Source of the DNA: Chitinophaga caeni
Lineage (GTDB): Bacteria; Bacteroidota; Bacteroidia; Chitinophagales; Chitinophagaceae
Length of the DNA stretch: 64,000 bases
NCBI RefSeq assembly: GCF_002557795.1
Contig: NZ_CP023777.1
Span: 3,977,001-4,041,000 of the forward strand
Direction: 5' to 3'
Below are positions 4,188 through 44,256 of the stretch, piece after piece (the stretch's first letter is position 1; each line of letters begins with the position of its first letter). A model generated the notes under the pieces. The model was not told the origin of the DNA. It ran no database searches and worked only from the letters and a program-made list of their open reading frames with translations. The position numbers and the translations under genes were made by a program.

Positions 4188-4513
4188 GTTGCCCGACTAA
4201 AATTGATTCAAGTTTTGCTGTATTCCTTGCCAGTTATGGAATTCCAGCTAAGGATGATATGTTCTACATACGGGGTAGCTCCCCCCAAGAAAACAAGAAT
4301 GCTCCGCACTGTTGATAACGAACGAAGGCTGGTGATACAGTAGTACAAAAGCTCCATCGGGCGATCAAATTGGTGGCCGTGATGGCCAATTTGTGCCCTT
4401 TTTTGGTGCTTTTTTGGGTAACCAAAAAAGTACAAGAAACGGGCAGATGGGCATTGAGTCGAACCTTTAACGGAGACCGTTGTTCTTCCACATTGAAAAT
4501 TTAGTCGGACAAC
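4188..4513 (-). repeat. MITE-like interspersed element, copy 1 (inverted relative to copies 2 and 3)
   Basis: A 326-base element with terminal inverted repeats: GTTGCCCGACTAAA at the left and the complement of GTTGTCCGACTAAA at the right (13 of 14 match). It is bounded by a perfect 17-bp direct repeat AATAATAAAAAATCATT (4171-4187 and 4514-4530). Read on the minus strand it aligns along its core with 27567-27865 and 43954-44256, including two conserved stem-loops (GTACTTTTTTG pairing with CCAAAAAAG; CAAATTGGC pairing with GCCACCAATTTG). No convincing ORF is present. The rest of the 3968-4698 gap shows nothing else beyond the sigma-gene promoter. Confidence 0.8.
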
Positions 4514-4672
4514 AATAATAAAAAATCATTAATTTGCTCCAGCTATAAGGTCAAATTAGGATAGAATTAGATCAACAGTTGGTTCCACGATGATTACCGT
4601 TCCACGCAAGAATAGTATGTGAACTTTATATTAATTCTTATCAGCCAGGATTCATCCATTTACTATCAATTG

Positions 4673-4680
4673 TACATTTG
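4673..4680 (+). promoter_or_regulatory. -7 promoter element for the sigma factor gene
   Basis: TACATTTG matches the TAnnTTTG consensus and ends 18 bases before the ATG at 4699. A good -33 TTTG is not evident. Because the longer reading frame would start at a TTG inside this box (4678), the box argues for the ATG start. Confidence 0.5.
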
Positions 4681-4698
4681 CCGCCAATTTTGGACAAC

Positions 4699-5286
4699 AT
4701 GGATGTGAATATAAACTTGGAGATCAATAAAGATTCCTTCAAACAGCTGTACGACGAATATTTTACGTTGTGCTGCCGTTATGCATATTCATTCCTAAAC
4801 GATTATGAAGCCGCCAGGGATGCCGCATCCGAAGTATTTTGCCAAATATGGAAGCATAGGGCCAACATTAAAATCAATACCAGTATCAAGAACTATCTCC
4901 TGGTAGCTTGCCGCCGCCAATGTCAAAAACAATCTAAAAAAACGGATCGTCAAGATGTATTAAACCAGCATTTTTCGGGTCAACAAACCGCTAGTTTACA
5001 CCCCCATGAAGCATTAGCTAATAAAGAAGCTACCGAGAAATTCCATCAATTATTACAACAGCTGGACCCGGTTAAACAGGAAATCATCGATTTAAGGTTG
5101 CTTGGTTTAACTTATAAAGAAATTGCTGAAATTCTACATATGACCGTCAGGAAGGTGGAATACCATATGAACTCGGCCATTAAATCTTTGCAGGAGGAAG
5201 CCCTGAACTTAAAAAATTCGCACCAGGAAATCTACCTGGTTATCAGTAGTTTATTGTTATTGATGCACTCCCCTGTTTTCCAATAA
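4699..5286 (+). CDS. ECF-type RNA polymerase sigma-70 factor
   Basis: A 195-residue ECF sigma factor of the Bacteroidota type. Region 2 spans about residues 13-78 (FKQLYDEYFTLCCRYAYSFL; AASEVFCQIW), region 4 about 112-168 with the helix-turn-helix LTYKEIAEILHMTVRKVEYH at 137-156. The C-terminal hydrophobic tail (LVISSLLLLM) is common in these factors. ATG at 4699 is preferred over the in-frame TTG at 4678, which lies in the -7 box. The gene precedes a FecR anti-sigma gene by 34 bases and an STN-bearing SusC, the classic trans-envelope signalling set: the sigma factor is held by FecR until the outer-membrane receptor binds its substrate. Confidence 0.93.
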   Translation: MDVNINLEINKDSFKQLYDEYFTLCCRYAYSFLNDYEAARDAASEVFCQIWKHRANIKINTSIKNYLLVACRRQCQKQSKKTDRQDVLNQHFSGQQTASLHPHEALANKEATEKFHQLLQQLDPVKQEIIDLRLLGLTYKEIAEILHMTVRKVEYHMNSAIKSLQEEALNLKNSHQEIYLVISSLLLLMHSPVFQ

Positions 5287-5320
5287 ACACTATTTTTAAA
5301 AAAATTCCCCTCCCAGGCGT

Positions 5321-6319
5321 GTGTTTTTGCGGTCACACACCTCTTATATATTAAAACCGCTCCCATTGAACGCCAATATTTTATTCAAACACATTAACGG
5401 GGAATGTTCCGCAGAGGAAAAAATCATCGTCGCCGCATGGTTAGATGCCTCCCCCCGCAACCGTGAGATTTATGCCACTTTACGTGCCCGCAAGCAAGCG
5501 CTTGAATTTAAGCCCGTGCATGATTGGGAAAAGATGGAACGGATGATGCAAGCGGATTCAGAAATGGCGATCCCGGTCAAGCAGCCTTCCCGCTGGTACA
5601 AGTATGCTGCTATCGCTGCCTCATTCCTCGGCATCGCGGCAACGGGTTACTTTGCCTTGAAAGAATTAAATAAACCGCACTTACCGTCTTTCGTCACCGT
5701 TTTCACGGATCACAGCAGCAAGAAAACCTTGCACTTGCCGGATGGAAGTACTGTTTGGTTGCAGTACAATACGGTCATCCGCTACGATAGTTCATCGGGC
5801 CAATCCGAAAGGAAGGTTTTCTTGGAAGGGGAAGCGTTCTTCGACGTAGTAAAAACATCCGGCGCTGCCTTCTCGGTTCATACCAATGGTATGGACATCA
5901 GGGTGTTGGGAACTTCTTTCAACGTGAAAAGTAGGCCGGGACAAACACAAGAAGTATCGGTAGCTACCGGTAAAATCCAGGTACAAACACCGGCTACGCA
6001 AATGCATTTATTACCGCAACAACGCGCTAAGGTAAACGGCAACCAAGTTAATGTAGACACCCTCTCTATCGAGGTTATCACCGCGAAAAGAGACAACAAG
6101 CTCATCTTCCAAAATGCATCCATGGCTACCATCGCCAAGCAAATCGGGGATTGGTATAATATGAAAGTCGAAATACGCGGAAGTGGTCACGAACCTACGG
6201 CATTTACAGGTACAATTTCCGATGATGGGTTGAAGAACGTGTTAGACGGTTTGGGATACCTCGCAGGATTTAATTACGAAATAAAAGATAGCACCATTTA
6301 TATCCAACCAAAACACTAA
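5321..6319 (+). CDS. FecR family anti-sigma factor
   Basis: A cytoplasmic N-terminal anti-sigma segment (NGECSAEEKIIVAAWLDAS) leads to one transmembrane helix at residues about 95-113, then a periplasmic FecR domain (about 124-225, with LPDGSTVWLQYNT and FLEGEAFFDV) and a C-terminal DUF4974 STN-like domain (about 255-330). The protein sequesters the upstream ECF factor and receives the signal from the receptor's STN domain. No ATG lies near the 5' end: GTG at 5321 gives 332 residues, TTG at 5366 gives 317 and starts just before the conserved N-terminus, so the start is uncertain. It is 25 bases upstream of the SusC gene. Confidence 0.92.
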   Translation: MFLRSHTSYILKPLPLNANILFKHINGECSAEEKIIVAAWLDASPRNREIYATLRARKQALEFKPVHDWEKMERMMQADSEMAIPVKQPSRWYKYAAIAASFLGIAATGYFALKELNKPHLPSFVTVFTDHSSKKTLHLPDGSTVWLQYNTVIRYDSSSGQSERKVFLEGEAFFDVVKTSGAAFSVHTNGMDIRVLGTSFNVKSRPGQTQEVSVATGKIQVQTPATQMHLLPQQRAKVNGNQVNVDTLSIEVITAKRDNKLIFQNASMATIAKQIGDWYNMKVEIRGSGHEPTAFTGTISDDGLKNVLDGLGYLAGFNYEIKDSTIYIQPKH

Positions 6320-6344
6320 TTCTACTTATTTAACACTGATACAA

Positions 6345-9300
6345 ATGAAAAAACTCGTTAGTGGAATTTGTAGCTTGTTACTGGCCGCAACAGTAACGGC
6401 ACAATCGAACTCCCCTATTACCACGTTCAGTAAGAAAGATCTTACGCTCAAAGAGGTCGTGGAAAGTTTACAACGCAAGGAAAAATTATCCGTCATGTAT
6501 GACAACGCGGTAAATTCCAACGCGCTGGTACACCTTCCTTCCACGAAGCTCTCCCTCGATCAACTCGTCAAAATCTTAGGCCAACAAACCGGCCTAGATG
6601 TAAAATTGATCAACAATAATATTTATATCAAGAATAAACCTGCCAATAACGCATCGGTACAACAAGAAAAAATAACCGTGAAAGGTACGGTTTTGTCGAA
6701 AGACGATAACAGTCCGATCCCCGGCGCCACGATAGCTGTAAACGGCAAGGTATCCGCGGTTTCAGGCCAAGATGGATCTTTTGCACTCGATGTTCCGAAA
6801 GGCGCTACCCTCGAATTTAAATCGATCGGTTTAAGCCCGGTAAAATATGTTGCCAATGCCGGGGCAAACAATATTAAAATAGAAATGTCTACCAATGTCA
6901 CGCAATTAAACAGCGTGGTGGTTACGGCCCTCGGTATTAAACGGGAAGAAAAGGCGCTAGGCTACGCAGTTACAAAGATGGACAATGAAGATTTTACAAA
7001 TGCCATCAGTAACAACTGGACAAATAACCTTAGTGGTAAGGTGGCCGGTGTTAATATTCTCAAATCAAACGGTGGCCCCGGTGGTTCTAACAAGATTATA
7101 TTACGGGGTGAGAATACCTTCGATATGAATAACGAGGCGCTCATCGTAATTGATGGTGTAATTACCAGCGCCAGTAGCGGCCGTATGACCGGTACCGGCA
7201 GTGGCTCTTACCTCGATGGCGACTCCCCTACCGATTTCGGAACGAGCCTTAATGATATTAACCCGGAAGATATTGAAAATGTTACGGTGTTGAAGGGTCC
7301 CGGTGCCAGTGCATTGTACGGTTCGCGCGGTGCGAATGGAGCGATCATTATCACCACCAAATCGGGTAGCTCCATTCAAAAAGGATTAGGCGTTTCATTT
7401 AACTCCAACTCTTCTTTCGAGTCTATCTCCCGTTGGCCGGATTACCAATATGAATACGGGCAGGGAGCAGCGGGTCAAGATAGTTGGTACTCTTACCTTA
7501 CTACCGCTGACGGTTCCAGTACGAAAAGTACGAGTTCCTCATGGGGACCGAAATTCGATGGTCAGAGTTATTTCCAATACGATCCGCAAACCCGTACCAC
7601 GGGCGCAGAAAGAACTCCCTGGGTACCCTATACAAACAACCGTAAAGATTTCTTCGAGACGGGGAAAAATTTTACCAATGCACTTTCTATCGAGGGTGGC
7701 AATAAAAATACGAATGCCCGCTTATCATTTACCAACTTAAACAATACCTGGATCGTACCTAATACCGGTTATACCAGGAACACGATCGCCATCTCGCTAA
7801 ACCACAAGGTGACCGAGAAGTTGAAGATTTCTACCAAAGTTAATTATACGAACAAGAAAGCAGACAATTTGCCGTCAACAGGGTACAACAACCAAACCAT
7901 CATGTACTTTATCCGCGGTTTAGTTCCTAATGCGAATATCGACTGGTTCAGGGATTACTGGGTACCCGGTAAAGAACAATTAGAACAAACAAGACCTTTC
8001 AGTAGCTTGCTAGACAACCCGTTTTTACAAGTCTACGAAATGTTGAACACGATGAACCGTCACAGTATCGTGGGAAATGTGTCTGCAAACTATGACTTTA
8101 CAAAAAACTTAAGCCTGACAGTACGCTCCAGCTTAGACTACTCTTACGATGCCAGGTCACAACGCAGGCCTAAAGGCACACAGAAGTTTGTAGACGGTAT
8201 GTACCGCACGCAGAATATTTTTAACCAGGAAACTAATATGGATTTCATGTTGCGTTATTCCAAGAGCCTGGTTAAAAATGTAAAGGCTGACATCTCCTTC
8301 GGGGGAAGCCGCATGCACAACAAGTACAATAAGGACGAGGTACGTGCCGAAAAATTACGGGTGCCGGGCGAATATAATTTTGCCAATAGCAAGATCAACC
8401 TAGAAACCCGTCCATACCATAGCGAATACGCGGTAAATAGCTTGTACGGCTTGATTGCCTTGAGCTATAAGGATTTCCTGTATTTCGATGCGACTTTACG
8501 GAATGACTGGACAAGTACCTTGGCCGTTCCTGCCGACTTAAGCCGCACCTCATATTTCTACGATTCCTACAACGTATCCACGATCCTCTCGGAATTATTT
8601 GAATTACCGAGAAACATCAATTACCTGAAGTTAAGGGGATCGATCGCAACCGTAGGTAGCGGGGGAACAACCCCTTACTTGACCATGTTCGGCTATGTTC
8701 CTCAAACCAATTACAATTCCGGCCTATCCAACCCGACTTACATCGCGAACGAAGACTTGGAGCCATCTAAGACGGTGAGTTATGAAGTAGGTACGGAGAT
8801 GAAGTTGTTCGGAAGATTTAACCTTGATGTTGCAGTCTACCAAAACAACTCCAAGAACCAGATTATCAGGGCGCCGATTGATCCCTCTTCCGGTTTCAGG
8901 GGATCGGTACTGAATGCCGGGGAGATCCGCAACAGGGGCATTGAAATAGCAGCAAGCTACAACGTGTTGAAAAATAAAAAAGGTTTAAACTGGACAACAA
9001 ACATTACTTACTCCACTAACAAGGGAAAGATCTTGACACTTGCTAAAGGACTGGACACTTACATATTGGGCACGGGGCCAGCTAACCGGGGCCAGATCAC
9101 CGCTATTCCCGGCGGATACATGGGCGACCTTTACGGTTTAGGTTACGAAAGAGCGCCGGATGGCCAGATCATTTATAATGATTTAGGCTACCCGATCCTC
9201 GGTCAAAGTGTGAAATACCTTGGTAATACGAATCCTGATTACAGGTTCGGTTGGGGCAATGAGTTTAAATGGAAGCAATTCCGCTTCAACTTCTTGTTCG

Positions 9301-9770
9301 ATAGCCAGTTTGGCGGCGTAGGATATTCATTAACCCACGCGGTATTGGCAGAAGAAGGGAAGCTGAAGAAAACCATCCCCGGTCGCTATAACGGTATCAT
9401 CGGGGATGGAGTAGTCATGGATAAGGATGGTAATTACATTCCCAATACGACGATCGCAACCAATATCCAGGCATATTATAACGAGCACTTCAAACGCGAT
9501 AACGTGGAAGCGAATACTTTCAGCACCGACTTTATCAAGTTAAGGGAAACAAGGATCGATTATACCTTGGATTCCAAATTGGTACGCAGGTTGAAATTGC
9601 AGCGTGCTTCCGTGGGAATCTTCGGCCGCGACTTGTTTATGATTACCGATTGGCCAGCTTTCGACCCTGAATTTGGTACACTTTCAGGTGATGATATCAA
9701 CAAAGGATTTGAAATCGGTCAGTTCCCATCAACGAGAACAATCGGGATAAACCTAACCGTGGGCTTCTAA
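6345..9770 (+). CDS. SusC/RagA-like TonB-dependent transporter with N-terminal STN signalling domain
   Basis: A 1141-residue outer-membrane transporter. Order of parts: signal peptide (1-20, ends TVTAQ); STN domain (about 30-96, KDLTLKEVVESLQRKEKLSV to NNNIYIKN); carboxypeptidase-regulatory-like beta-sandwich (about 110-185, GTVLSKDDNSPIPGATI); linker with VVTALGIKREEKALGYAV; plug with DGVITS and LYGSRGANGAIIITTK; then a long beta-barrel ending in a hydrophobic residue (TVGF). The STN domain is what distinguishes receptors that signal to FecR/ECF pairs, matching the two genes upstream. The substrate is unknown; the SusD and DUF5689 partners suggest a polymer or peptide. The gene lies 13 bases before its SusD. 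Confidence 0.95.
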   Translation: MKKLVSGICSLLLAATVTAQSNSPITTFSKKDLTLKEVVESLQRKEKLSVMYDNAVNSNALVHLPSTKLSLDQLVKILGQQTGLDVKLINNNIYIKNKPANNASVQQEKITVKGTVLSKDDNSPIPGATIAVNGKVSAVSGQDGSFALDVPKGATLEFKSIGLSPVKYVANAGANNIKIEMSTNVTQLNSVVVTALGIKREEKALGYAVTKMDNEDFTNAISNNWTNNLSGKVAGVNILKSNGGPGGSNKIILRGENTFDMNNEALIVIDGVITSASSGRMTGTGSGSYLDGDSPTDFGTSLNDINPEDIENVTVLKGPGASALYGSRGANGAIIITTKSGSSIQKGLGVSFNSNSSFESISRWPDYQYEYGQGAAGQDSWYSYLTTADGSSTKSTSSSWGPKFDGQSYFQYDPQTRTTGAERTPWVPYTNNRKDFFETGKNFTNALSIEGGNKNTNARLSFTNLNNTWIVPNTGYTRNTIAISLNHKVTEKLKISTKVNYTNKKADNLPSTGYNNQTIMYFIRGLVPNANIDWFRDYWVPGKEQLEQTRPFSSLLDNPFLQVYEMLNTMNRHSIVGNVSANYDFTKNLSLTVRSSLDYSYDARSQRRPKGTQKFVDGMYRTQNIFNQETNMDFMLRYSKSLVKNVKADISFGGSRMHNKYNKDEVRAEKLRVPGEYNFANSKINLETRPYHSEYAVNSLYGLIALSYKDFLYFDATLRNDWTSTLAVPADLSRTSYFYDSYNVSTILSELFELPRNINYLKLRGSIATVGSGGTTPYLTMFGYVPQTNYNSGLSNPTYIANEDLEPSKTVSYEVGTEMKLFGRFNLDVAVYQNNSKNQIIRAPIDPSSGFRGSVLNAGEIRNRGIEIAASYNVLKNKKGLNWTTNITYSTNKGKILTLAKGLDTYILGTGPANRGQITAIPGGYMGDLYGLGYERAPDGQIIYNDLGYPILGQSVKYLGNTNPDYRFGWGNEFKWKQFRFNFLFDSQFGGVGYSLTHAVLAEEGKLKKTIPGRYNGIIGDGVVMDKDGNYIPNTTIATNIQAYYNEHFKRDNVEANTFSTDFIKLRETRIDYTLDSKLVRRLKLQRASVGIFGRDLFMITDWPAFDPEFGTLSGDDINKGFEIGQFPSTRTIGINLTVGF

Positions 9771-9783
9771 AAATTGTAACGAC

Positions 9784-11232
9784 ATGAAATTATTGAAATA
9801 CAGCTTTTACATATTAGCAAGTGCAGGCTTATTGCTATCCGCTTGTAGGAAGGATTTCGAAGAAATCAATACCGACCCAAACAAGGCAAGATACGCCAAC
9901 CCTGAAACACTGATCGGCCCATCGCTGATCAGGATGGTACAGGTCAATCAAAATCGTTGCCTTAGGATCAACAACGAGTTGATGCAAGTACACGTAACCA
10001 CGATCAACTCCGACGAGATACACCGTTACGTAATCCGCCCCGCTGAATCAGACTATCTCTGGAATAACTGGTATCCCGAAAGGACAGACTTTTTGGATAT
10101 TTACAGGGGCGGCGTTAAGTTAGACAGTAACAGCACCTACATGGGCATTGGCTTAATCCTTGATGCATGGAACATTTCCTTGTTGACGGATATGTTTGGC
10201 GATGTACCGTATTCAGAGGCGAATATGGGTAGGTATGAAGATATATATCAACCCAAATTCGACAAACAGGAAGATATTTATATGGATGTCTTCAAGAAAT
10301 TGGAAGCAGCAAATACTTTACTGGCTAAAGGAGTTACCGTAGCTGAAGGAGATGCGACATTAGACTACCTATACCATACTGACCCAGCACTATGGCGTAA
10401 ATTTGGTAATAGTTTGTACTTGCGCCTTTTATTGCGCGTATCCGGGAAAGCGGAAGCCAACGCACCAGCCAAGATGCAGGAGATCGTTGCCAACCCTAGC
10501 CAATATCCATTATTTGCCAATAACGATGAATCCGCTATTTTAAGGTTCACAACTACCCCACCCTTCGTATCGGCATTTAACACTTACCGCGATTACGATT
10601 TTAATGGGGACAACGGTTTATCAACCTTCTTTATCAATAATTTAAAAGAATGGGATGACCCGAGGATCAATAAATGGGCATCCAAAGTAAGTGGAACATT
10701 CGAGGGAATCAGTTCCGGTTACGCCGTGGGCGATGTACCGGAAAGACAATCCTATTACTTGGCCGCATTAAAAAACGAACCCTTGCTGGGCAACATCTTG
10801 AATTATCCGGAGTTACAATTCATCTTGGCCGAAGCAGCCTTGAAAGGTTATATCAGCGGCAGTGCGCAAAGTTTCTATGAAGAAGGGGTAAAAGCAGCCT
10901 TAAACCTCTGGGGATATGAAATGCCGGATAATTACCTAAGCCGCGAAGGCATTAAATGGAATGAAAGTGACATGGAATTTGACAAGATGGAGAAAATCCA
11001 TTTGCAGAAATATTATACCATGTTCTTTACAGACTTCCAGCAATGGTACGAATACCGCAGAACAGGGCATCCAGTGCTTCCAAAAGGACCCGGTTTGAGA
11101 AACGATGGTAAAATGCCGAGCCGCTTAAATTACCCGGTTATGGTTCAGACACTCAATGCTACCAATTACAAAAATGCAGTTGAGCAGATGGGTCCAGATG
11201 ATATCAATACCAAGGTATGGTGGAATAAATAA
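9784..11232 (+). CDS. SusD/RagB family nutrient-binding outer-membrane lipoprotein
   Basis: A 482-residue lipoprotein with a lipobox ending LLLSAC (Cys21). It belongs to the SusD-like group commonly paired with SusC in peptide or unknown-substrate systems, with stretches such as GLILDAWNISLLTDMFGDVPYSEA (tetratricopeptide-like helices), NSLYLRLLLRVSG, and QFILAEAALKG. SusD proteins form the lid of the SusC barrel and bind substrate at the cell surface. The gene is 13 bases after SusC and 28 before a DUF5689 lipoprotein, so all three are co-transcribed. No glycan specificity can be inferred, since no hydrolase gene is linked. Confidence 0.93.
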   Translation: MKLLKYSFYILASAGLLLSACRKDFEEINTDPNKARYANPETLIGPSLIRMVQVNQNRCLRINNELMQVHVTTINSDEIHRYVIRPAESDYLWNNWYPERTDFLDIYRGGVKLDSNSTYMGIGLILDAWNISLLTDMFGDVPYSEANMGRYEDIYQPKFDKQEDIYMDVFKKLEAANTLLAKGVTVAEGDATLDYLYHTDPALWRKFGNSLYLRLLLRVSGKAEANAPAKMQEIVANPSQYPLFANNDESAILRFTTTPPFVSAFNTYRDYDFNGDNGLSTFFINNLKEWDDPRINKWASKVSGTFEGISSGYAVGDVPERQSYYLAALKNEPLLGNILNYPELQFILAEAALKGYISGSAQSFYEEGVKAALNLWGYEMPDNYLSREGIKWNESDMEFDKMEKIHLQKYYTMFFTDFQQWYEYRRTGHPVLPKGPGLRNDGKMPSRLNYPVMVQTLNATNYKNAVEQMGPDDINTKVWWNK

Positions 11233-11260
11233 TGTTATAACATCCTAAAGAAATTCACTT

Positions 11261-12541: not shown

Positions 12542-12559
12542 ATAATATTGGTTAACAAG

Positions 12560-12590
12560 GCGGGGAATAAATTTATTCCCCGCTTTTTTT
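12560..12590 (+). terminator. Terminator of the sigma/SusCD operon
   Basis: A perfect 24-base palindrome (12-bp arms GCGGGGAATAAA / TTTATTCCCCGC at 12560-12583) followed by seven T. It starts 19 bases after the DUF5689 stop codon. Confidence 0.92.
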
Positions 12591-12852
12591 ATGCCTTAGG
12601 GCAAATGAATTCAATGGAAAGTAGATCATCCATAAAGAACTTAGGGCTATTATCAGCTGCAAGCAGCGCAGCGTTCGGGATAGCCACTGAAAACGGTATC
12701 GCTAAATTGTACGTTTAAATTGAGGCAAACTGCTAGTATCTTGCAAGAGAGAAAAATAACCGGGGTTCGTCCCGGTTATTTAATTTAAAGTTGTATGGCT
12801 TTTTTGTCAACCCCAGTAAACTATTTACAGGTACTGATTGACTTGGGATGTA
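12591..12852. other. Short intergenic stretch with a weak 37-codon ORF
   Basis: No confident gene. On the plus strand ATG 12605 to stop 12718 gives 37 codons beginning MNSMESRSS; it has no promoter match and no recognisable family, so I do not call it. The remainder holds the hairpin at 12754-12781. Confidence 0.4.
12754..12781 (-). terminator. Terminator downstream of the thioesterase gene
   Basis: 11-bp arms AAATAACCGGG (12754-12764) and CCCGGTTATTT (12771-12781) with a 6-base loop. Read on the minus strand the stem is followed by a short T-rich run, which suits the thioesterase gene ending at 12853. Confidence 0.7.
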
Positions 12853-13353: not shown

Positions 13354-13394
13354 ATTGAATAGTCTCAAAATTGATCATGATAATTAACAGGCCA

Positions 13395-14438: not shown

Positions 14439-14456
14439 TTGCAAAATTTTAAGGCA

Positions 14457-27334: not shown

Positions 27335-27566
27335 TCTTCCCTTGGCTCCCCGTAGCGTTTCTGGTTACAATATAATTAAATTGGGATTTATTATAGACTT
27401 GATTTTAGGATTCCGGGTTAATACCGCTGCGTATTAATTTCCCGGCATTATGCAAGATGATATAGATGTTCTTATCACATTTCCAACTATACGAAAGATG
27501 CATAGCTCCATATCGCTGTCTTACTTGTAAACGATTCTTCTCTTACGATTAATAAATTAAATCATT

Positions 27567-27865
27567 ATTGTCCGACTAAATTTTCAATGAAAAAATTATT
27601 ATCGCCTCAAAAGTTCGATTCAATGTTCATCTGCTCGTTTCTTGTACTTTTTTGCTTGCCCAAAAAGGGCACAAATTGGCCATCACGGCCGCCAATTTGA
27701 TCGCGCGATCCAGCTTTTGTACTACTGTATCGCCCAGCTACCGTTCGCTATTAAAAGTGCGAAGTTCCACGGTTTTGTTGGCGGGGTTGAATAGATTAGC
27801 ATTCGATTATGTCCTTGACCAGGTAAGGAGTTCAAGTAAATTTAATGCAATTTTATTCGGACAAC
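27567..27865 (+). repeat. MITE-like interspersed element, copy 2
   Basis: A 299-base copy of the element at 4188-4513 (inverted) and 43954-44256. Left end ATTGTCCGACTAAA, right end the complement of GTTGTCCGAATAAA. Flanks are AATAAATTAAATCATT (27551-27566) and AATGAAATTAAATGATT (27866-27882), an imperfect direct repeat sharing the 9-mer AAATTAAAT. It lacks about 12 bases (second arm of the first hairpin, AAGTACCAAAA) that copies 1 and 3 keep. Reading frames across it change frame between copies and are not taken as genes. Confidence 0.8.
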
Positions 27866-27991
27866 AATGAAATTAAATGATTTTTGCTATGTAGATGTTC
27901 CATCGCGATTCAAACCCGGTTAACCGGCATAAAGATGCGTCATATTCATTTGCTTAAAATGAAATTTTACATTCGCATTCTTCAAAAATAA

Positions 27992-36088: not shown

Positions 36089-36181
36089 TGTATTTTATAC
36101 CACTAATTTCAACTATTTTTTCCAGTGCAAAAAAGATTAAATTAAAGGAAGAAAATGTAACTTTAAGGTAATTCCTCGTGT

Positions 36182-36916: not shown

Positions 36917-36949
36917 AATAGCTTGCCATTAAATTTGTTAACATCCTTT

Positions 36950-36975
36950 TGCCCGGTGTCAAAGCCGGGCATTTA
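36950..36975 (+). terminator. Terminator of the methyltransferase gene
   Basis: Arms TGCCCGG (36950-36956) and CCGGGCA (36965-36971) with an 8-base loop, then TTTATA. It begins 33 bases after the stop codon. Confidence 0.7.
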
Positions 36976-37753
36976 TATATGTAACATCGAACAAATCGAC
37001 TAACACCGCCGATGTTTTGAACAGCCAATGTTTGCGTACTGCCTAGTTAATTTTCCTAATTGTTTAATGGGGAAGTTCCGCCATACACTTCTTTATTTAA
37101 CTGGTTCGAGCTTACCAAGATCGGAGTCCATGAAATAACGTTCACCCGGTAGTAGATCTTGTTCGCCAGTATGAGGAACCCGACGATTGGCTGTTACGGG
37201 TGCAACGGTGTAACTACCATTTCGTTTCCCATAAAATTGTAAATGTACTCAATTGTGCGTGGGTCCGAGCTTGGAAGCTCGAACCAGCAAAAATTTTGGG
37301 CTTTGGGCTAAAGCATTCAAAAATCAATCTGCCAGCCCCACAACTCCTGCATAGCATTATGGTCAACCGCTAGTACAACTTGTTCGCCTGTATGAGGAAC
37401 CCGACGATGGGCTGTTACAGGTACAACGCTGTAACTACCATTTCGTTTCCGGTACAATTGTAAATGCCTTCAATTGTGCGTGGGTCCGAGCTCGGAAGCT
37501 CGAACCAGCAAAAATTTTGGACTTTGGGCGTACATCTTGTTCGCCGGTATAAGGAATCCGACGATTGGCTGTTACGGGTGCAACGGTGTAACTACCATTT
37601 CGTTTCCCCTAAAATTGTAAATGTACTCAATTGTGCGTGGGTCCGAGCTCGGAAGTTCGAACCAGCGAAAATTTTGGACTTTGGGCTAAAGCATTCAAAA
37701 AACGACCCCTGGGCACGACCAATTGTGCTCGCGCGCCAGGGTAGTAATTTTCG
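36976..37753. other. Non-coding interval dominated by a triple direct repeat
   Basis: No gene recognised. See the repeat at 37158-37701. The region before (36976-37157) contains an inverted copy of part of the unit (GGTTCGAGCTT, 37103-37113). Confidence 0.6.
37158..37701 (+). repeat. Triple ~166-bp direct repeat
   Basis: Three units in direct orientation: 37158-37323 (166 bases), 37379-37530 (about 152, lacking the tail) and 37536-37701 (166). Each starts CTTGTTCGCC, continues through GACGATTGGCTGTTAC and AACTACCATTTCGTTTCC, has an imperfect hairpin GGTCCGAGCT / AAGCTCGAACC, and the complete units end GGGCTAAAGCATTCAAAAA. Units 1 and 2 are separated by about 55 unrelated bases; 2 and 3 are adjacent. 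Reading frames in the repeat are not conserved as protein. It lies just downstream of the phospholipase C gene. Confidence 0.8.
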
Positions 37754-40282
37754 TTACCCGATAACTGCACCCATAAATGGATCACTGATGCTATCAGCAC
37801 CAGTTTCAACGTGCCCGGTATAACGTCTTTCATATCCATCGTTACCATCGACCATCAGTGTAAAATCATACCAACCCGAGCTTTTCTCCAGGTTAATCAC
37901 GATTTTAACCGGAACTCCGGGATGAACTGTTTTACTGGTAGCAGGACTTTTATATGCATTGTCTACCAGGTTAACAACCAATGGTTGGCTATTGGCTGGC
38001 AGACGTAGTTCAAGGATTAAATTGCCAGTTAACCCGGCCTTTCTAATCTTTCTTTGTTGGTAAGACAAGTTTGCAATCAAGGATGGATCATTTGCGTTAC
38101 CTTTCAACTCGCGTGAGAATCCATTTGGCCCCAGCGCATATAACCAGTAATTGCTCCCTTCAAAATCATTTACATTCCAATCATATTCCAGGGATTCACC
38201 GGCTTCAACCGAAAATGACCATAACTTACAAGATTCATTTTTATACTTACCCGGCGCATACACGCTGAATGGCGCCCCTAATGAACGCTTGGAAAACACA
38301 TCCTTACCGGCCTTCATTTTTACTTTCAGGATACCATTTTGCAAAGGCGCCGCATCAAGATACAACTCGTACGGAATGGCACAAGCCGTTCTCGTACCGG
38401 CTTCCTGCCGCGGTAAGTAAGGCGATTGATGCGGTGAAGCATTGACCGCGGCTATTTGCTCCCCGTTCAGTTTTCTTTGACCGTCCGGTAATTCTTTAAA
38501 CTTAGCATTATAGATCTGCTCGATCACAGCGTCTTTACCAAGGAAAGGTAAATTATGTGCATCGGCAGGATCAAATGGTTTAAAGACGCTGCTCAGGTCG
38601 CCGCAAATTACCCTGCGCCAAGAGGTGATATTCGGACATTCAACGGTTTTGCGGGTCTTATGAGTCAGGAAATGTTCCAAAAACTGTAAGGAAGAAGTAT
38701 GATCAAAAACTTGCGAGCAAACTTTGCCACCCCTGCTCCATGGAGAAGCAATTACCATCGGCACCCGGTAACCTAAACCTATGGGGCTTTCCCTAGCATA
38801 TTTTTTGGATCGCTTGTTGGCCAACTCCTGTTCCATCGTTACAAATTCGCTGCTGGTATCAACACCTTTCGTCGCAGCCCCGGAACTAGGATCAGCAGGA
38901 TTATGTGCTACAAAAGGAGAAAAGTGATCGTAGTACCCATCATTTTCATCATAGGTAAGAACGAAGATGGTTTTCTTCCAAATTTCGGGATCCTGGGTCA
39001 GGATATCGATCGTTTCTGAAAGAAACCATGCCCCGTACCAAGGCGAACCTGGGTGATCAGAATAAGCCGCGGGTGGCACGAGCCAAGAAACCGTTGGCAA
39101 TTGGCCATTCTTAACATCTTCCCTGAATTGATGTAATACATCTCCTTTAGGCACCCTAATACTCCTATCTTCGTTACCATCCTTATATTTCAAAGTAGTC
39201 AACTCATGGTAATCAGGATCCCCAACATTCGTCGTAAATGCTTTCCCGTGTAAAGCCTTCTGGCGCTCGCTCAATTTATCATAAGCAGCTTGTGTAAAGT
39301 TTTTGATGCTGTCTTCCACCATGCTAAGCTGTTTACGCCTGGCGGCCAACTTCCTTTGCAGATCGGGGCTATCCTTTCCTTCGCTGATTTCCCGTTCCAT
39401 GTTAGCGATAGCGATTTCCAAATTAGTTTTGGCTACCGGTAAATATTCACGGTGCGCTTTAGAAAACCGTACGTTGAAATTTTCGAACCATTCCAGCGGG
39501 TTATCTGTAAAATTGGCCAACCAATTTTCTTCCTCATCATCAAGACCAACACCAACGCTGATTTCATTTTGGTAAACTTTCCACGAAACACCGTGATCTT
39601 CCAATACCTCGGGGAATGTTTTCCAATCCGCCCAAGCATTATAATCTACATCGCTGTTCCAAACATTGGCACGGGAATCCGGCTGTTGCTTCGCACGGAT
39701 AGACCCGGTCCAGAAGTACAGGCGATTAGGCGTGGTACCTGTTAATGAAGAACAGAAATTATGGTCGCAAACAGTAAAAGCATCTGCCAAAGCATAGTAA
39801 AAGGGTAAATCATTCCGATCATAATAACCCATGGTCAACGGTAAATGCTCGTAGGATTTGATCGGGGATTTTTTATGCAGTAGCCAACCATCATACTTCC
39901 CTTTATTCCGGGCATCAACTTGGTCGGACCAACCGTGCGGTAAAGAACTCATCCAGGTTGCTTTCGTATCCTTAATATTTAACCTGTAAGGTGCGTAAGT
40001 ATCGCCCTTCTCATCGGTTTGTAGCCAAGCCAAGTTACCATTCGGTTGACGGATGATCCGGGGATCATTGAATCCCCTCACCCCCCTAAGCGTACCGAAT
40101 GTATGGTCGAAAGAACGGTTTTCCTGCATTAAGAATACCACGTGTTCCGCATCTAGATATGTGCTACCGGGTGCAGGGTTAATGGCTAAAGCTTTTTGTA
40201 TTGATGCCGGGATGGTATTTGCAATTCCAGTAGCCCCGGACAATAACGCTGCTTTCTTGATAAAGTCTCTCCTATTACTCAT
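37754..40282 (-). CDS. Phosphocholine-specific phospholipase C
   Basis: An 842-residue enzyme of the PlcH/PlcN (acid phosphatase AcpA-like) family. A twin-arginine signal (SNRRDFIKKAALLSGATG) exports it folded. The catalytic part spans about 40-560: VVFLMQENRSFDHTFGTLRG (metal and substrate motif), YYDRNDLPFYYALADAFTVC, CSSLTGTTPNRLYFWTGS, FVLTYDENDGYYDHFSPF, and VPMVIASPWSRGGKVCS. The tail (about 620-835) carries two DUF756 modules (NGILKVKMKAG; NLILELRLPA). It hydrolyses phosphatidylcholine or sphingomyelin. Bacteroidota make little choline lipid, so the likely use is scavenging eukaryotic lipid phosphate. The stop lies about 50 bases from the triple repeat. Confidence 0.93.
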   Translation of the reverse strand: MSNRRDFIKKAALLSGATGIANTIPASIQKALAINPAPGSTYLDAEHVVFLMQENRSFDHTFGTLRGVRGFNDPRIIRQPNGNLAWLQTDEKGDTYAPYRLNIKDTKATWMSSLPHGWSDQVDARNKGKYDGWLLHKKSPIKSYEHLPLTMGYYDRNDLPFYYALADAFTVCDHNFCSSLTGTTPNRLYFWTGSIRAKQQPDSRANVWNSDVDYNAWADWKTFPEVLEDHGVSWKVYQNEISVGVGLDDEEENWLANFTDNPLEWFENFNVRFSKAHREYLPVAKTNLEIAIANMEREISEGKDSPDLQRKLAARRKQLSMVEDSIKNFTQAAYDKLSERQKALHGKAFTTNVGDPDYHELTTLKYKDGNEDRSIRVPKGDVLHQFREDVKNGQLPTVSWLVPPAAYSDHPGSPWYGAWFLSETIDILTQDPEIWKKTIFVLTYDENDGYYDHFSPFVAHNPADPSSGAATKGVDTSSEFVTMEQELANKRSKKYARESPIGLGYRVPMVIASPWSRGGKVCSQVFDHTSSLQFLEHFLTHKTRKTVECPNITSWRRVICGDLSSVFKPFDPADAHNLPFLGKDAVIEQIYNAKFKELPDGQRKLNGEQIAAVNASPHQSPYLPRQEAGTRTACAIPYELYLDAAPLQNGILKVKMKAGKDVFSKRSLGAPFSVYAPGKYKNESCKLWSFSVEAGESLEYDWNVNDFEGSNYWLYALGPNGFSRELKGNANDPSLIANLSYQQRKIRKAGLTGNLILELRLPANSQPLVVNLVDNAYKSPATSKTVHPGVPVKIVINLEKSSGWYDFTLMVDGNDGYERRYTGHVETGADSISDPFMGAVIG

Positions 40283-40578
40283 TCAAGTTTGGTTTTGGTG
40301 CTACAAGATATAAAAGTGTCGGTTGAATTTCTTACAATGTTTGGTTAAACGGTCATTAAATCATCTAGGGATCGTATTAACGTAACATAAAATAAAAAAT
40401 TAGCAGGCTTTTACTATTAATAACTGGAAACCAATTATTTGTTACAACTGATATAATATCATCACACATGTTGTATTTTTATATTCTACTATTACTGGGT
40501 AACCATTGAATTTGACCTGGAACAAAATACAAATGAGGTTGTTATCAATAAAAGGCCGGTAACTAAAAACATTTATTA

Positions 40579-40950
40579 TTGAGATCTATTACACCAGTTA
40601 TTCAACTAAAAAGAACGTACAGCAGTTTTGATAAAACTGATGGCTACAGGGTTTTAATAGATGCATTATGGCCACGCGGCATCAGCAAAGAGGAGTTGCA
40701 TGCAGATCAATGGTTAAAAACCGTTGCGCCGTCTACCGAATTGAGAAAATGGTTCAACCATGAACCCGCGAAATGGCAATCATTCCAAAGAAAATATGCG
40801 GCAGAACTATCCATCAATGAATCTGTGCAGGCCCTGATCGACATTGTTCGGCTTCACCCGGTTACGACCTTCCTATATAGCGCCCATGATGAAAAGCATA
40901 ACAATGCGATCGTATTAAAGGAATATATTATTACGAAATTAGAAGCCTAG
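40579..40950 (+). CDS. DUF488 family protein
   Basis: A 123-residue protein of the small DUF488 (YeaO-like) family. Recognisable stretches: VIQLKRTYSSFDKTDGYRVL, IDALWPRGISKEELHADQW, APSTELRKWFNHEPAKW and the closing TTFLYSAHDEKHNNAIVLK. These motifs (LWPRG, WFxHxPxxW, YSAKDxxHNxAxVL) define the family, whose function is unknown. No ATG is available: a TTG at 40579 is the best start and gives normal length. It stands alone in the plus strand. Confidence 0.85.
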   Translation: MRSITPVIQLKRTYSSFDKTDGYRVLIDALWPRGISKEELHADQWLKTVAPSTELRKWFNHEPAKWQSFQRKYAAELSINESVQALIDIVRLHPVTTFLYSAHDEKHNNAIVLKEYIITKLEA

Positions 40951-41033
40951 AAGGTTCGCGGGACAAACGGCAACTTCGCGGGATCGGGCTTCAATCTTAT
41001 CAAATGCAATTTCTAAACAGAAAGTGATAATTC

Positions 41034-41411
41034 TTATCCTTCATCCATTTCTTCTTCCATCATGGCCGTGTCGAAATAAGTAGTTAGGTGAATCAACATA
41101 CCATCTTCAATCTCGTAAATATCGCAGATATGCTGCTGCCTCCAAGCGCCATTTAATTGTACCGGTTTCCCATCGCTTTGAACAACTACGAAATTACCTT
41201 CCGCGATCATGTTCGTAACTCTCGATGTTTTTACTTCCGTGCCGCCGGAGCGTAACATTACAAGGAAATGTTCGCGCTTAAGCGGTTCGGGTAGGCCTGG
41301 TAAATGCCATTCGAAATCATGCGATAAGTGCTGCTCAAAAAAACCGACATCTCCCAGTAAAAATGCTTGGTTGATAGCTGTAGCTAATGTTTTATTCTCG
41401 GAAGAAATCAT
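41034..41411 (-). CDS. SnoaL/NTF2-like protein
   Basis: A 125-residue NTF2-like cone-fold protein: helix ISSENKTLATAINQAFLLGD, strand ADFEWHLPG-like FEWHLPGLPEPLKREHFLVM, and later strands FVVVQSDGKPVQLNG and ICDIYEIEDGMLIHLTTYFD. Such proteins are ketosteroid isomerase-like binders or enzymes. The frame runs upstream to 41534, but a TACTTTTG -7 box (41452-41459, minus strand) lies in that extension, supporting ATG 41411. It sits downstream of the ArsR gene on the same strand but apparently has its own promoter. Confidence 0.83.
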   Translation of the reverse strand: MISSENKTLATAINQAFLLGDVGFFEQHLSHDFEWHLPGLPEPLKREHFLVMLRSGGTEVKTSRVTNMIAEGNFVVVQSDGKPVQLNGAWRQQHICDIYEIEDGMLIHLTTYFDTAMMEEEMDEG

Positions 41412-41451
41412 CCTGTTCCATTTAAATTTGTTTGGGTCATGTGCTCTTCCA

Positions 41452-41459
41452 CAAAAGTA
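41452..41459 (-). promoter_or_regulatory. -7 promoter element of the SnoaL-like gene
   Basis: TACTTTTG on the minus strand fits TAnnTTTG, 40 bases before the ATG at 41411. It shows the longer reading frame is not the gene. Confidence 0.5.
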
Positions 41460-41540
41460 AATGGATGCTGCTTTACGGGTTGGGGTTAATTGCGGCATTT
41501 TAACGGTGCAATTGCGCTTCGATACTTGATGCACGGATAT

Positions 41541-41870
41541 TTATTCGTCCTTGGAAGGTCTTTCATCCAGGAGCCGCGCCAGCTTATTCAATTTGGTATG
41601 CCAAAATTGATCAAAATACTGCATCCAATCCTGCAATTGCCGGAACCCATCTTGCTTCAAGGTGCAGTACCGCTCCCGCCCGATATCTTCTATAGATATA
41701 AAGCCCGCTTGATTCAATATTTTTATATGTTTTGAAACTGCCGGCCGGCTCATTTCAAAATTTTCCGCTATCGTATTAATGCTCATGCTATCTTCGGAGA
41801 GCATCTGCAAAATGGTTCTCCTACTAGGATCAGCGACTACTTGAAATACATCTAATTGTTGCGTAGACAT
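41541..41870 (-). CDS. ArsR family transcriptional regulator
   Basis: A 109-residue winged-helix repressor: VADPSRRTILQMLSEDSMSI, then the recognition helix FEMSRPAVSKHIKILNQAGF, and the wing ISIEDIGRERYCTLKQD. There is no metal-binding CxC motif, so it is of the SRPBCC-linked, non-metal ArsR type. It begins one base after the SRPBCC gene and is its co-transcribed regulator. The operator palindromes at 42309-42352 are likely its binding sites. Confidence 0.92.
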   Translation of the reverse strand: MSTQQLDVFQVVADPSRRTILQMLSEDSMSINTIAENFEMSRPAVSKHIKILNQAGFISIEDIGRERYCTLKQDGFRQLQDWMQYFDQFWHTKLNKLARLLDERPSKDE

Positions 41871-41871
41871 C

Positions 41872-42303
41872 TTATACCGGTTTAATATTCTTGATAAAAC
41901 GCTTGCCTATTTTTATCCAACCCTTGTTCATCACGAGGTAAGGGAAATAATTCCGGAAACCATCGAAACCGGCATGTTCTAACTTCAGCAAAGTTCCACC
42001 GTCCATAGGCTCCAAGATCCAGGTAACGATAGAGTCCAGGCCGGGTTTTTCTTTCGACATCCCCCCTTTCCAGGAGTAAACAAGCTTTTGAAAGGGTATG
42101 ATCTCCAGTACTTCGCAGTACACCGTTCCATCAAAGCCGAAATTGATCTTTGGTTTGGTTTTAAAATGAAAATGGTGTCCCACGAGGGGTTTGAAATCAT
42201 TCGGCATAAGCCATTCAGCCAATAATTCCGGATCTGTTAAGTATTCCCATACCAGGGCGGGAGAATGTTGAAATTTGAATTCATGCTGGATGATCTTTTG
42301 CAT
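41872..42303 (-). CDS. SRPBCC (AHSA1-like) domain protein linked to ArsR regulator
   Basis: A 143-residue START/SRPBCC protein: IQHEFKFQHSPALVWEYLTD, PELLAEWLMPNDFKP, GTVYCEVLEIIPFQKLVYSW, IVTWILEPMDGGTLLKLEHA and a C-terminal helix region NYFPYLVMNKGWIKIGKRF. It is first in a two-gene operon with ArsR one base downstream, the reverse of the usual ArsR-first order. In this family the pair likely forms a small-molecule-responsive module, the SRPBCC protein binding the ligand; that is inference. It has a well-formed promoter overlapping two operators. Confidence 0.87.
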   Translation of the reverse strand: MQKIIQHEFKFQHSPALVWEYLTDPELLAEWLMPNDFKPLVGHHFHFKTKPKINFGFDGTVYCEVLEIIPFQKLVYSWKGGMSKEKPGLDSIVTWILEPMDGGTLLKLEHAGFDGFRNYFPYLVMNKGWIKIGKRFIKNIKPV

Positions 42304-42308
42304 AATAA

Positions 42309-42352
42309 GTAACTTTTAAGTTACGCAAACTTAAATGTAACTTAGGAGTTAC
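42309..42352 (-). promoter_or_regulatory. Twin ArsR operators and promoter of the SRPBCC-ArsR operon
   Basis: Operator 1 GTAACTTTTAAGTTAC at 42309-42324 is a perfect inverted repeat (7-2-7); operator 2 GTAACTTAGGAGTTAC at 42337-42352 is 6-4-6. Their centres are 28 bp apart (under three helical turns) and each is followed by GCAAA. The minus-strand promoter is TTTG (42354-42357), a 20-base spacer, then TAAGTTTG (42326-42333): operator 2 lies within the spacer and operator 1 covers the expected start site. Confidence 0.7.
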
Positions 42353-42417
42353 GCAAATTTATCCTTGTCAAAAACTATTCTTAAATTACCTTAAATTGCG
42401 AATTAAATCATTGTTAG

Positions 42418-43461
42418 ATGGAATTTGGTATTAGTACATTTGGTGAAGTGCGACCGGAAAATGTTGTTGGCCGCGCTAAGGAATCGTTTGCAAGGATGCA
42501 AGAATTATTGGAAGAGGCCAAGTTAGCCGACCGGGTAGGCATCGATGTATTTGCATTGGGCGAGCATCACCGGCCCGATTTTATTATTTCAGATCCTACC
42601 ACTGTTTTGGGTGGCATTGCTACCCAGACGAAACAAATCCGTTTATCCAGTTCCGTGACGGTATTAAGCTCAGATGACCCCGTGCGGGTTTATCAAAGTT
42701 TTGCCAGCCTAGATTTATTATCCGGCGGCAGGGCAGAAATTATGGCCGGCCGGGGTTCTTTCACGGAGTCATTCCCCTTGTTCGGATACAGTTTGAATGA
42801 TTACGATGCCTTGTTTAATGAGAAGCTGGCGCTATTATTACAAATAAACCGTGAAGAGATCGTAACGTGGAAAGGTACATTCAGGGCGCCTATTTACCAG
42901 CGGGGCATTTACCCGAGACCCTACCAGGAACATTTACCCATATGGATAGCGGCAGGTGGCACACCGGCTTCCGCGGTTAGGGCTGGCAAACTGAATTTGC
43001 CCTTAGCCTTGGCAATACTCGGTGGTAATCCCAGCCATTTTTTACCGTTCGTACAGCGTTACCGGCAGGCAGCCACCCAGGCAGGGCATGATGCGGCACA
43101 GTTGCAATTGGCGATCAATTCCCAGTTCTATGTTGCCGAAAGTTCAGAAAAAGCGGCGGATGAATTTTATCCTTCTTACGAAGTCTTAATGAACCGGGTT
43201 GGAAAAGATCGGGGTTGGGCGCCTATGACGAGGGAACAATTTGAATACCTGCGTATGCCGGAAGGACCATTATTCGTGGGTAGTGTGGACGAGATCGTTG
43301 AAAAATTATTGTTACAAAAAGAACTCTTTAATAATACCCGGTTCTTGGCCCAGCTGGTGAAAGGGTATATACCGCATGAGAAAGTGTTAAATACGATAGA
43401 ATTATTCGGCAACCAAGTTATTCCGAAAGTAAAAGCGGCACTGGAAAATAAAAGCGCTTAA
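42418..43461 (+). CDS. LLM class flavin-dependent oxidoreductase
   Basis: A 347-residue luciferase-like monooxygenase (TIM barrel, FMN-dependent). Typical stretches: FGISTFGEVRPENVVGRAKE, ADRVGIDVFALGEHHRPDFI, IRLSSSVTVLSSDDPVRVYQ, FASLDLLSGGRAEIMAGRGS, and PIWIAAGGTPASAVRAGKLN. Reduced flavin comes from a separate reductase. It is divergent from the SRPBCC-ArsR operon and 114 bases from that start, so ArsR could also affect it. The substrate is unknown. Confidence 0.9.
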   Translation: MEFGISTFGEVRPENVVGRAKESFARMQELLEEAKLADRVGIDVFALGEHHRPDFIISDPTTVLGGIATQTKQIRLSSSVTVLSSDDPVRVYQSFASLDLLSGGRAEIMAGRGSFTESFPLFGYSLNDYDALFNEKLALLLQINREEIVTWKGTFRAPIYQRGIYPRPYQEHLPIWIAAGGTPASAVRAGKLNLPLALAILGGNPSHFLPFVQRYRQAATQAGHDAAQLQLAINSQFYVAESSEKAADEFYPSYEVLMNRVGKDRGWAPMTREQFEYLRMPEGPLFVGSVDEIVEKLLLQKELFNNTRFLAQLVKGYIPHEKVLNTIELFGNQVIPKVKAALENKSA

Positions 43462-43470
43462 CGGCGCTTT

Positions 43471-43938
43471 TTACCTGCGGGCATTTAACCAGGCAAGGTG
43501 AATTTTGTTATTGAAATAAAAATAAAACAATGCGACCAGGAACAAAATTGCCCTGGACAAAATCGTAATGGAATGCTCCCAGCTGAGCATATTGGTATCG
43601 AAGGTAAAAATTACCATCACCATGGTTCCCATGGCATCCAACCTGGCCCACCTAGGCCCGAAACGCCTATACGTCAGTAAACCGTAAGCGCCAAGAAATT
43701 TCACGACCATCATAACGATCGTCCAAGCGCCAAGGTAATCTACGGGTGGATGGTATCCTAATAAATCGGTTTTACTTAACAACTTCCAAGCGGCAGCAAC
43801 GGCGTACCAAAATGCTAGCACGATATTTAGCCAGGCTAAGAATTTAACCCAGCCGGGAAGCAAAGAATACCTGGACGGCGTATTTAGCTCGTCGAATGCT
43901 TCATCAAAAATGCTTTCCCCTGGATGCTCCTCATTCAT
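43471..43938 (-). CDS. Small integral membrane protein, unknown function
   Basis: A 155-residue protein with four predicted membrane helices (about 30-50, 66-90, 104-120 and 125-147; e.g. VKFLAWLNIVLAFWYAVAAA and ITILSRAILFLVALFYFYF). I do not recognise a family. The N-terminus is acidic (MNEEHPGESIFDEAFDELN). It is convergent with the LLM gene (nine bases apart). Its start codon at 43938 is only 15 bases from the end of repeat copy 3, so its promoter must be inside or beyond that element. Confidence 0.72.
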   Translation of the reverse strand: MNEEHPGESIFDEAFDELNTPSRYSLLPGWVKFLAWLNIVLAFWYAVAAAWKLLSKTDLLGYHPPVDYLGAWTIVMMVVKFLGAYGLLTYRRFGPRWARLDAMGTMVMVIFTFDTNMLSWEHSITILSRAILFLVALFYFYFNNKIHLAWLNARR

Positions 43939-43953
43939 ATAAATTAAATCATT

Positions 43954-44256
43954 ATTGTCCGACTAAATATTCAACGAAAAAATTATCATCTCCTCAAAAG
44001 TTCGATTCAATGTCCACCTGCACATTTCTTTGTACTTTTTTGCTTGCCCAAAAAAAGTACCAAAAAAGGGCACAAATTGGCCATCAAGGCCGCCAATTTG
44101 ATCGCTCGATCCAGCCTTTGTACTACTGTATGGCTTCGCTATCTACAGTGCGAAGTTGCACGGTTTTGTTGGCTGGGCTGAATAGATCATCCTTCGCTTA
44201 TGTCCTTGACCAGGTAAGGCATCCAAGTAAATTTAATGCAATTTTAGTCGGACAAC
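43954..44256 (+). repeat. MITE-like interspersed element, copy 3
   Basis: A 303-base copy. Left end ATTGTCCGACTAAA, right end the complement of GTTGTCCGACTAAA. It is flanked on both sides by AAATTAAAT (43941-43949 and 44261-44269). Both hairpins are preserved (GTACTTTTTTG...CAAAAAAAGTAC; CAAATTGGC...GCCAATTTG). It lies 15 bases upstream of the start of the membrane protein at 43471-43938 and about 40 bases from the fucosidase-operon terminator. Confidence 0.82.

Follow-up and report, generated by a model that had tools for sequence, protein, structure and literature searches.

The window analysed here, a stretch of 64 kb (64,000 nucleotides) of the Chitinophaga caeni chromosome, carries three copies of a MITE family. 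The copies, their 9-bp target-site duplications (TSDs) and their hairpins lie at the following window positions:

4184..4517, minus strand: MITE copy 1, 334 bp, among the more divergent copies (G000:3981184-3981517)
4175..4183: left 9-bp TSD of copy 1, ATAAAAAAT, low-coordinate side
4518..4526: right 9-bp TSD of copy 1, ATAAAAAAT, high-coordinate side
4366..4393: hairpin 2 in copy 1, 8-bp arms, read from the sequence; the helix is also in the consensus fold
4394..4445: hairpin 1 in copy 1, arms 4394-4417 and 4422-4445
27563..27869, plus strand: MITE copy 2, 307 bp, lacking the 3' arm of hairpin 1 through a deletion
27554..27562: left 9-bp TSD of copy 2, AAATTAAAT
27870..27878: right 9-bp TSD of copy 2, AAATTAAAT
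27672..27699: hairpin 2 in copy 2
43950..44260, plus strand: MITE copy 3, 311 bp
43941..43949: left 9-bp TSD of copy 3, AAATTAAAT
44261..44269: right 9-bp TSD of copy 3, AAATTAAAT
44025..44067: hairpin 1 in copy 3
44073..44100: hairpin 2 in copy 3

A first-pass annotation had described three copies of a non-autonomous mobile element with 14-bp terminal inverted repeats (TIRs), flanking direct repeats and two conserved hairpins. All three copies are found where it placed them, with ends that extend 4 bp further on each side (CATT...AATG). The TIR comprises 18 bp instead of 14 and is imperfect: 16 or 17 of the 18 positions match in 61 of 95 copies and at least 15 in 82. The boundaries are sharp and common to 95 near-full copies. 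The direct repeats are exact 9-bp TSDs at all three window copies, and copies 2 and 3 share the same one. As to the hairpins, hairpin 2 (CAAATTGGC...GCCAATTTG) is present in all three copies, while hairpin 1 is intact in copies 1 and 3 and broken in copy 2. The three copies are set apart by indels of 1, 2, 10 and 13 columns.

The expectation of many further copies was borne out. At least 110 elements were recovered in the 5.28-Mb chromosome, 97 of them near full length (295-335 bp, about 320 bp). In the BLAST enumeration, the best 40 of 157 and the best 40 of 160 candidates were scored; most per-copy statistics refer to 95 near-full copies. Extrapolation from end counts gives a total of about 125-130 copies, which would amount to approximately 40 kb or 0.75% of the chromosome. 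The 18-bp end with at most one mismatch occurs 205 times in the genome vs. 0 times for the reversed pattern, and the 13-bp core 226 times vs. 21 for its reversed control (the first 100 places were listed). In the window, this core with up to two mismatches was found 8 times compared to a mean of 3.6, and 3 of 100 shuffles reach 8. Since the window alone is only mildly above chance, it is the genome-wide end count that carries weight. One tandem array of copies was also observed.

The flanks display the signature of transposition. A 9-bp TSD matches at 9/9 positions in 45 and at 8/9 in 29 of the 95 near-full copies (together 74), whereas mispaired flanks yielded 0/200 and 8/200, respectively. 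No such peak was seen in these copies at lengths of 5-8 or 10-13 bp. In 16 of 95 copies as cut, fewer than 7 of 9 positions match; several of these show one-base shifts and three belong to the tandem array. Of the 95 TSDs, 54 begin with AT, 43 finish with it and 18 do both, against an AT dinucleotide background of 12.5% in the flanks. When the flanks were joined to reconstruct the empty sites, 92 of 95 had no spanning ORF of at least 100 codons; of 324 positions picked at random from these pieces, by contrast, 211 fall inside such an ORF. At one locus checked for an empty site, tblastn with the downstream neighbour gene gave no match close to the orthologue in the 9 top-ranking genomes out of 32 other matching ones. 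Sharp ends, 9-bp TSDs, sites outside ORFs and more than 100 copies support the view of a non-autonomous mobile element.

The first-pass annotation had also postulated a transposase that recognises the TTGTCCGACTAAA end and had proposed a search for an IS with the same ends. Such ISs were discovered in relatives, though not in the host chromosome: four in G274 and one each in G317, G147 and G022, the last a Chitinophaga with an IS of 1416 bp. The seven full-length ISs span 1405-1418 bp. Five of them (L074, L075, L076, L078, L093) are flanked by 9/9 TSDs and L073 by an 8/9 TSD; L077 has none. In G022, the transposase is encoded by an open frame of 409 codons. The G274 transposase, P0001, scores 220 bits with the IS4 model NF033592 (cut-off 115) and also matches PF01609 and PF14294. 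It carries a YREK motif, YKNRWMIELLFKQIK, and D133, D204 and E311, assigned by eye, are its candidate catalytic residues. A solved structure matching P0001 was not found. In G094, the same ends accompany another IS4-family transposase, P0002, which differs greatly from P0001; a transposase of this type could equally have moved the MITE. Homology between MITE and ISs stops at 18-24 bp of the end. This leaves the idea that the MITE is a deletion derivative of the IS unsupported. Because little beyond the 18-bp end is shared, the IS partner was assigned by ends and TSD length only; on these grounds, the copies were probably moved by an IS4-type (IS4Sa-like) transposase. A 202-base IS end from G008 had no match in plasmid records.

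A coding role for the MITE interior was rejected. Averaged over 40 of the 95 copies, the longest open frame measures 82.7 codons, vs. 67.9 (sd 16) in shuffles. In 82 of the 95, it is a plus-strand frame. These frames are scattered over all three reading frames (35, 24 and 23), and indels separate the copies. Neither a conserved frame nor a transposase gene was found in copies of 295-335 bp, in agreement with the earlier statement that no intact ORF is present.

Alternatively, the interior might have been exapted as a functional RNA or regulatory hairpin that is under selection, with an ERIC- or Correia-like role. Copy 3, the one copy folded, indeed folds better than its shuffles (z = -4.55 and -3.41 for RNA from the two strands, -3.13 for DNA), and for windows of 28 columns, divergence is lowest in those that begin at the hairpin-1 5' arm (0.035) and at hairpin 2 (0.037-0.040, rank 15 of 292), compared to 0.064 overall. 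However, the left-end window is equally low (0.038), and directly over hairpin 1 the value is 0.050 (rank 46). In the consensus folds, hairpins 1 and 2 contain no pair changed on both sides in more than two copies, and with double changes almost absent there, a conserved RNA structure was rejected; larger double-change counts, up to 16/93, sit in a left segment that differs between subfamilies. Singleton changes are distributed fairly evenly along the MITE, hairpins included (0.35-1.24% per site and copy). Furthermore, copy 2 lacks one hairpin, no Rfam match exceeded the gathering score in the 64-kb window, and the pair divergence of the interior differs little from TSD divergence (see below). 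RNAalifold (Python module) returned near-zero consensus energies, which count against a common fold; they are not relied on, as indels in hairpin 1 may cause such values. Extra conservation of the hairpins is thus weak at most, and we consider exaptation improbable.

In the host chromosome, an autonomous copy was looked for in three ways and not found. Searches with P0001 and with NF033592 (over cut-off) gave no matches, and the PF01609 matches were limited to two transposases, one of the IS982 and one of the IS1182 type. The host sequence consists of one contig; a plasmid-borne transposase would escape these searches. The family could in principle still be active via another resident transposase or one on an unsequenced plasmid. 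The closest pairs of copies are 97.4% identical and the TSD is a perfect match in 45 of 95, which would agree with recent movement. Against this, no pair among the 95 copies is at least 99% identical, an IS4-type transposase was not detected in the chromosome, and no MITE-type end with four or fewer mismatches lies within 1.5 kb of the IS982 and IS1182 transposases. Ongoing activity appears slightly less probable still than exaptation. As the host chromosome yielded no transposase of the IS type, present mobility, as implied by the first-pass annotation, is unsupported. The divergence between copy pairs amounts to 0.064 (6.4%), that of the TSDs to 0.055 (5.5%; 95% CI 0.041-0.070). The latter value is derived from 79 copies with at least 7/9 matches and is biased low because only these were used. 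The family looks old, stranded and immobile, since the IS-type enzyme was not found in the chromosome.

REPINs are not known to leave a TSD of this kind. A mobilisation of REP/REPIN-type palindromes by a RAYT (TnpA-REP), which copies outside ORFs, hairpins, high copy number and the tandem array might suggest, has next to no chance of being correct, as the TSDs contradict it and, together with the ends, are those of a DDE element that has full-length IS counterparts.

We consider it very likely (about 90%) that the three window copies represent a MITE family that was moved in trans by an IS4-family transposase and has since been stranded. This interpretation draws on the ends, the TSDs, the site bias, the copy number, the matching ISs of relatives and the undetected host transposase. 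A transposase supplied in trans would recognise the 18-bp ends CATTRTTGTCCGACTAAA. Each insertion would duplicate 9 bp of an AT-rich site in which AT is preferred at either edge, and insertions outside genes would have survived. Later, the transposase was presumably lost from the lineage, or it may have been only a visitor, and the copies would have decayed close to neutrally. A more far-reaching proposal is an orphan family: an IS4-type transposase that failed to become resident in the chromosome would have amplified the approximately 125-130 copies entirely in trans and left them stranded, with the hairpins slightly better kept for transposition (in source copies) or as intergenic RNA signals after insertion. 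We regard it as speculative and rather unlikely.

The interior of the MITE is known from one species only, within the genomes and contigs searched. In 78 other Chitinophaga genomes, in many of which only the best 9 candidates were scored, no interior match at E ≤ 0.001 was obtained; matches in three of them comprise ends or hairpin 1 only. A core pattern with 27 specified bases is absent from GTDB contigs and IMG/VR, from which the host's own records are possibly excluded. A loose pattern for hairpin 1, considered as a possible widespread repeat of its own, occurs in five out of 198 genomes in the order, the host included, and is multi-copy in G108 and G399. Further MITEs that carry the same ends occur in other Chitinophagaceae: G182 (179 bp), G069 (178 bp), G094 (163 bp), G146 (126 bp) and the Chitinophaga G349 (178 bp). 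Like the host family, they carry the 18-bp end with 0-1 mismatch per end, and 9/9 TSDs flank three copies in G182 and one in G069; none was found for the G094 and G146 copies. By contrast, their lengths and interiors differ from those of the host family. In a blastn comparison with all of them except G349, the stretch shared at the ends did not exceed 24 bp among the best 40 matches. Because several other Chitinophagaceae possess their own same-end MITEs, these ends seem to seed MITEs repeatedly. No paper on the host family was found in the literature searched, which largely excludes subscription journals, and the 13-base end does not occur in it on either strand.

With more than 100 insertions and no transposase found, the family documents past IS4-type transposition in Bacteroidota as a clean fossil record, and the agreement between TSD decay and copy divergence offers a simple internal clock. 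At the same time, it is a fresh member of an already known element type, a good but ordinary case with which current views stand. For the IS4Sa subgroup, the published description gives ends of the form CA------T, direct repeats of 8-10 bp, a size of 1150-1750 bp, the motif Y(2)R(3)E(6)K and D(60-110)D(100-150)E (PMC2266710). Judged by ends (CATTATTGT..., of the CA------T form), 9-bp TSD, size (1.4 kb), YREK motif and D-x70-D-x106-E spacing, the full-length ISs fit this subgroup. Unlike them, the host MITE has no transposase and has little beyond the 18-bp end in common with them. Among the short repeats described in the literature are Correia of Neisseria (204 bp, >120), Chunjie of Geobacter (178-235 bp, 38 with TIRs and DRs) and ERIC (30-711) (PMC10969869). 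By these descriptions, the host MITE resembles them as a short repeat with tens to hundreds of copies, and it differs in its IS4-type ends, in an interior found in a single species only and in that no partner was found in the chromosome.

The three copies in the window belong to a genuine repeat family of an ordinary kind, which stands out for the number of its copies, its clean target-site record and its missing transposase. The copies were inspected directly and then aligned:

4184-4517, minus strand: copy 1 of the MITE
27563-27869, plus strand: copy 2 of the MITE
43950-44260, plus strand: copy 3 of the MITE

The first-pass annotation had located these copies, and their true ends lie 4 bases farther out than it proposed. 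The termini are CATT...AATG, with the outermost base altered in copy 1. Copy 1 is bounded by the exact 9-bp direct repeat ATAAAAAAT, copies 2 and 3 each by the exact 9-bp repeat AAATTAAAT. The identical target of the latter two (27554-27562 and 43941-43949, 16 kb between them) probably reflects a site preference. Two conserved internal hairpins had been postulated: hairpin 2 is found in all three copies, hairpin 1 in copies 1 and 3, and in copy 2 it is broken, as its 3' arm is gone. A 121-aa open frame (43896-44261) begins upstream of copy 3 and crosses the entire element to the right target-site duplication (TSD). Since this frame is not conserved between copies, it is most likely due to chance.

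The window (3977001-4041000) is part of a single 5,279,921-bp contig. In this host genome, the end TTGTCCGACTAAA occurs 226 times with at most one mismatch, compared to 21 times for a reversed control, and the 18-base end 205 times compared to 0. Two different copies were used as BLAST queries, and the best 40 of 157 and the best 40 of 160 candidates were scored. Stretches around copies, taken from the listed ends and BLAST loci, were merged with the window to 408 kb. A profile search of this sequence yielded 124 matches, corresponding to 110 elements after merging and removal of matches below 30 bits. Of these, 97 are nearly complete, and 13 are short or broken. This bears out the expectation of many copies in the genome. 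The 408 kb include 178 of the 205 18-base ends; therefore, the chromosome can be extrapolated to contain 125-130 copies. Element length is 295-335 bp (median 320). The copy statistics below refer to 95 copies spanning model positions ≤4 to ≥316.

TSDs were scored after cutting the copies at the 18-bp ends, with 200 mispaired flanks as control. The 9-bp flanks match at 9/9 positions in 45 copies and at 8/9 in 29, compared to 0 and 8 of the mispaired flanks, respectively. No comparable peak was detected at lengths of 5-8 or 10-13. Among the remaining 21 copies, some have ends shifted by one base, and three belong to a tandem array with period 398. AT is present at the target start in 54/95, at the target end in 43/95 and at both in 18 copies; AT dinucleotides make up 12.5% of the flanks. 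When the empty sites were joined and coding regions called by an ORF rule instead of a gene finder, an ORF of at least 100 codons spanned 3 of 95 sites, two of them in the tandem array, whereas 211 of the 324 positions drawn at random from the same stretches lay within one. Neighbouring ORFs are in tandem at 57, convergent at 24 and divergent at 14 insertions. The array (G000:C1:3612266-3613594; L179:2267-3595) contains a 398-bp unit repeated 3.3 times; a complete unit consists of one MITE copy and a spacer of about 76 bp. Because its copies lack matching TSDs as cut, it probably arose by segment duplication.

The reading as a non-autonomous mobile element was right; present movement is without any support. 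None of the 95 copies shares ≥99% identity with another. Two copies are on average 86% identical, a copy and its nearest neighbour 94% (median), and the divergence within 38 disjoint close pairs, all of at least 90% identity, is 6.4%. The two TSDs of a copy differ by 5.5% per site (95% CI 4.1-7.0; 79 copies with at least 7/9 matches). At 0.35-1.24% per site and copy, singleton changes are distributed fairly uniformly over the element. The divergences are most simply explained by near-neutral decay after insertion, the broader diversity being inherited from several source subfamilies. Against purely neutral decay count the 28-column windows of lowest divergence, namely those that begin with the 5' arm of hairpin 1 (3.5%) or with hairpin 2 (3.7-4.0%). 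However, a window over the left end is equally low (3.8%), and the one placed on hairpin 1 itself (5.0%) ranks 46 of 292. Copy 3, the sole copy folded, folds better than shuffles. Each predicted pair in both hairpins has at most two copies with changes on both sides.

At E≤0.001, the MITE interior was found in 0 of 78 other Chitinophaga genomes (at most 9 candidates scored per genome). Partial matches were detected in three: ends in G008 and G349, hairpin 1 in G353. The core pattern was not found in GTDB contigs or IMG/VR. Several other Chitinophagaceae carry distinct short MITEs, 126-179 bp long, whose ends are the same (L080-L085; L282, about 1352-1529), one of 178 bp in the Chitinophaga species G349. 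A hairpin resembling hairpin 1 (TACTTTTTTG...CAAAAAAGTA) recurs in other genomes of the order (L247-L249 and places in G399), for example 13 times in G108 and 20 times in G399.

The 18-base end with at most one mismatch occurs in 42 of 294 genomes of the family, a sample from a larger group, with the host among the 294. In G274, four end pairs enclose 1408-1410 bp; one pair encloses 1405 bp in G317 and 1418 bp in G147. The transposase frame is unbroken in L074 and L075 of G274 (402 codons each) and in G147 (409 codons), and broken in L073, L076 and L077. TSDs match 9/9 at L074, L075, L076 and L078 and 8/9 at L073; none is visible at L077. The G274 transposase P0001 (401 aa; NF033592 at 220 bits, cut-off 115; PF01609; PF14294) is, judged by its sequence, an IS4-family transposase with a YREK motif and D133/D204/E311 assigned by eye. 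Of 60 Chitinophaga genomes, 22 matched P0001 (E≤0.001); in the host chromosome, none of four candidates did. There, NF033592 had no match over its cut-off, the one weak match lying at an IS982 gene. The two host PF01609 genes are of the IS982 and IS1182 types, and no end of this type was found at their loci with up to 4 mismatches allowed. These searches covered PF01609-type families on the single contig; a transposase on a plasmid outside it would have escaped them.

Within the genus, an IS of 1416 bp in G022 has the ends CACTATTGTCCGACTAAA and CATTATTGTCCGACAAAA and the TSD ATTTTTTTC, and its transposase shares 82% identity with P0001. Four more ISs (L094, L095, L096, L098) have related ends at 2-3 mismatches; of three TSDs inspected, two match 9/9 and one 8/9. 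The MITE consensus shares 18-20 bp at the ends with the ISs compared. In G094, an IS of 1832 bp (L079; G094:C1:5629348-5631179) has the same ends, a TSD matching 9/9 and a gene for P0002, an IS4-family transposase of a second kind (NF033592 at 213 bits) that shows hardly any similarity to P0001 in BLASTP. One end sequence thus appears to be used by two transposase lineages. As both kinds sit between the same ends, either of them, P0001 or P0002, may have moved the MITE. In their ends, size and TSD, the presumed partner ISs agree with subgroup IS4Sa as described in Table 1 of PMC2266710.
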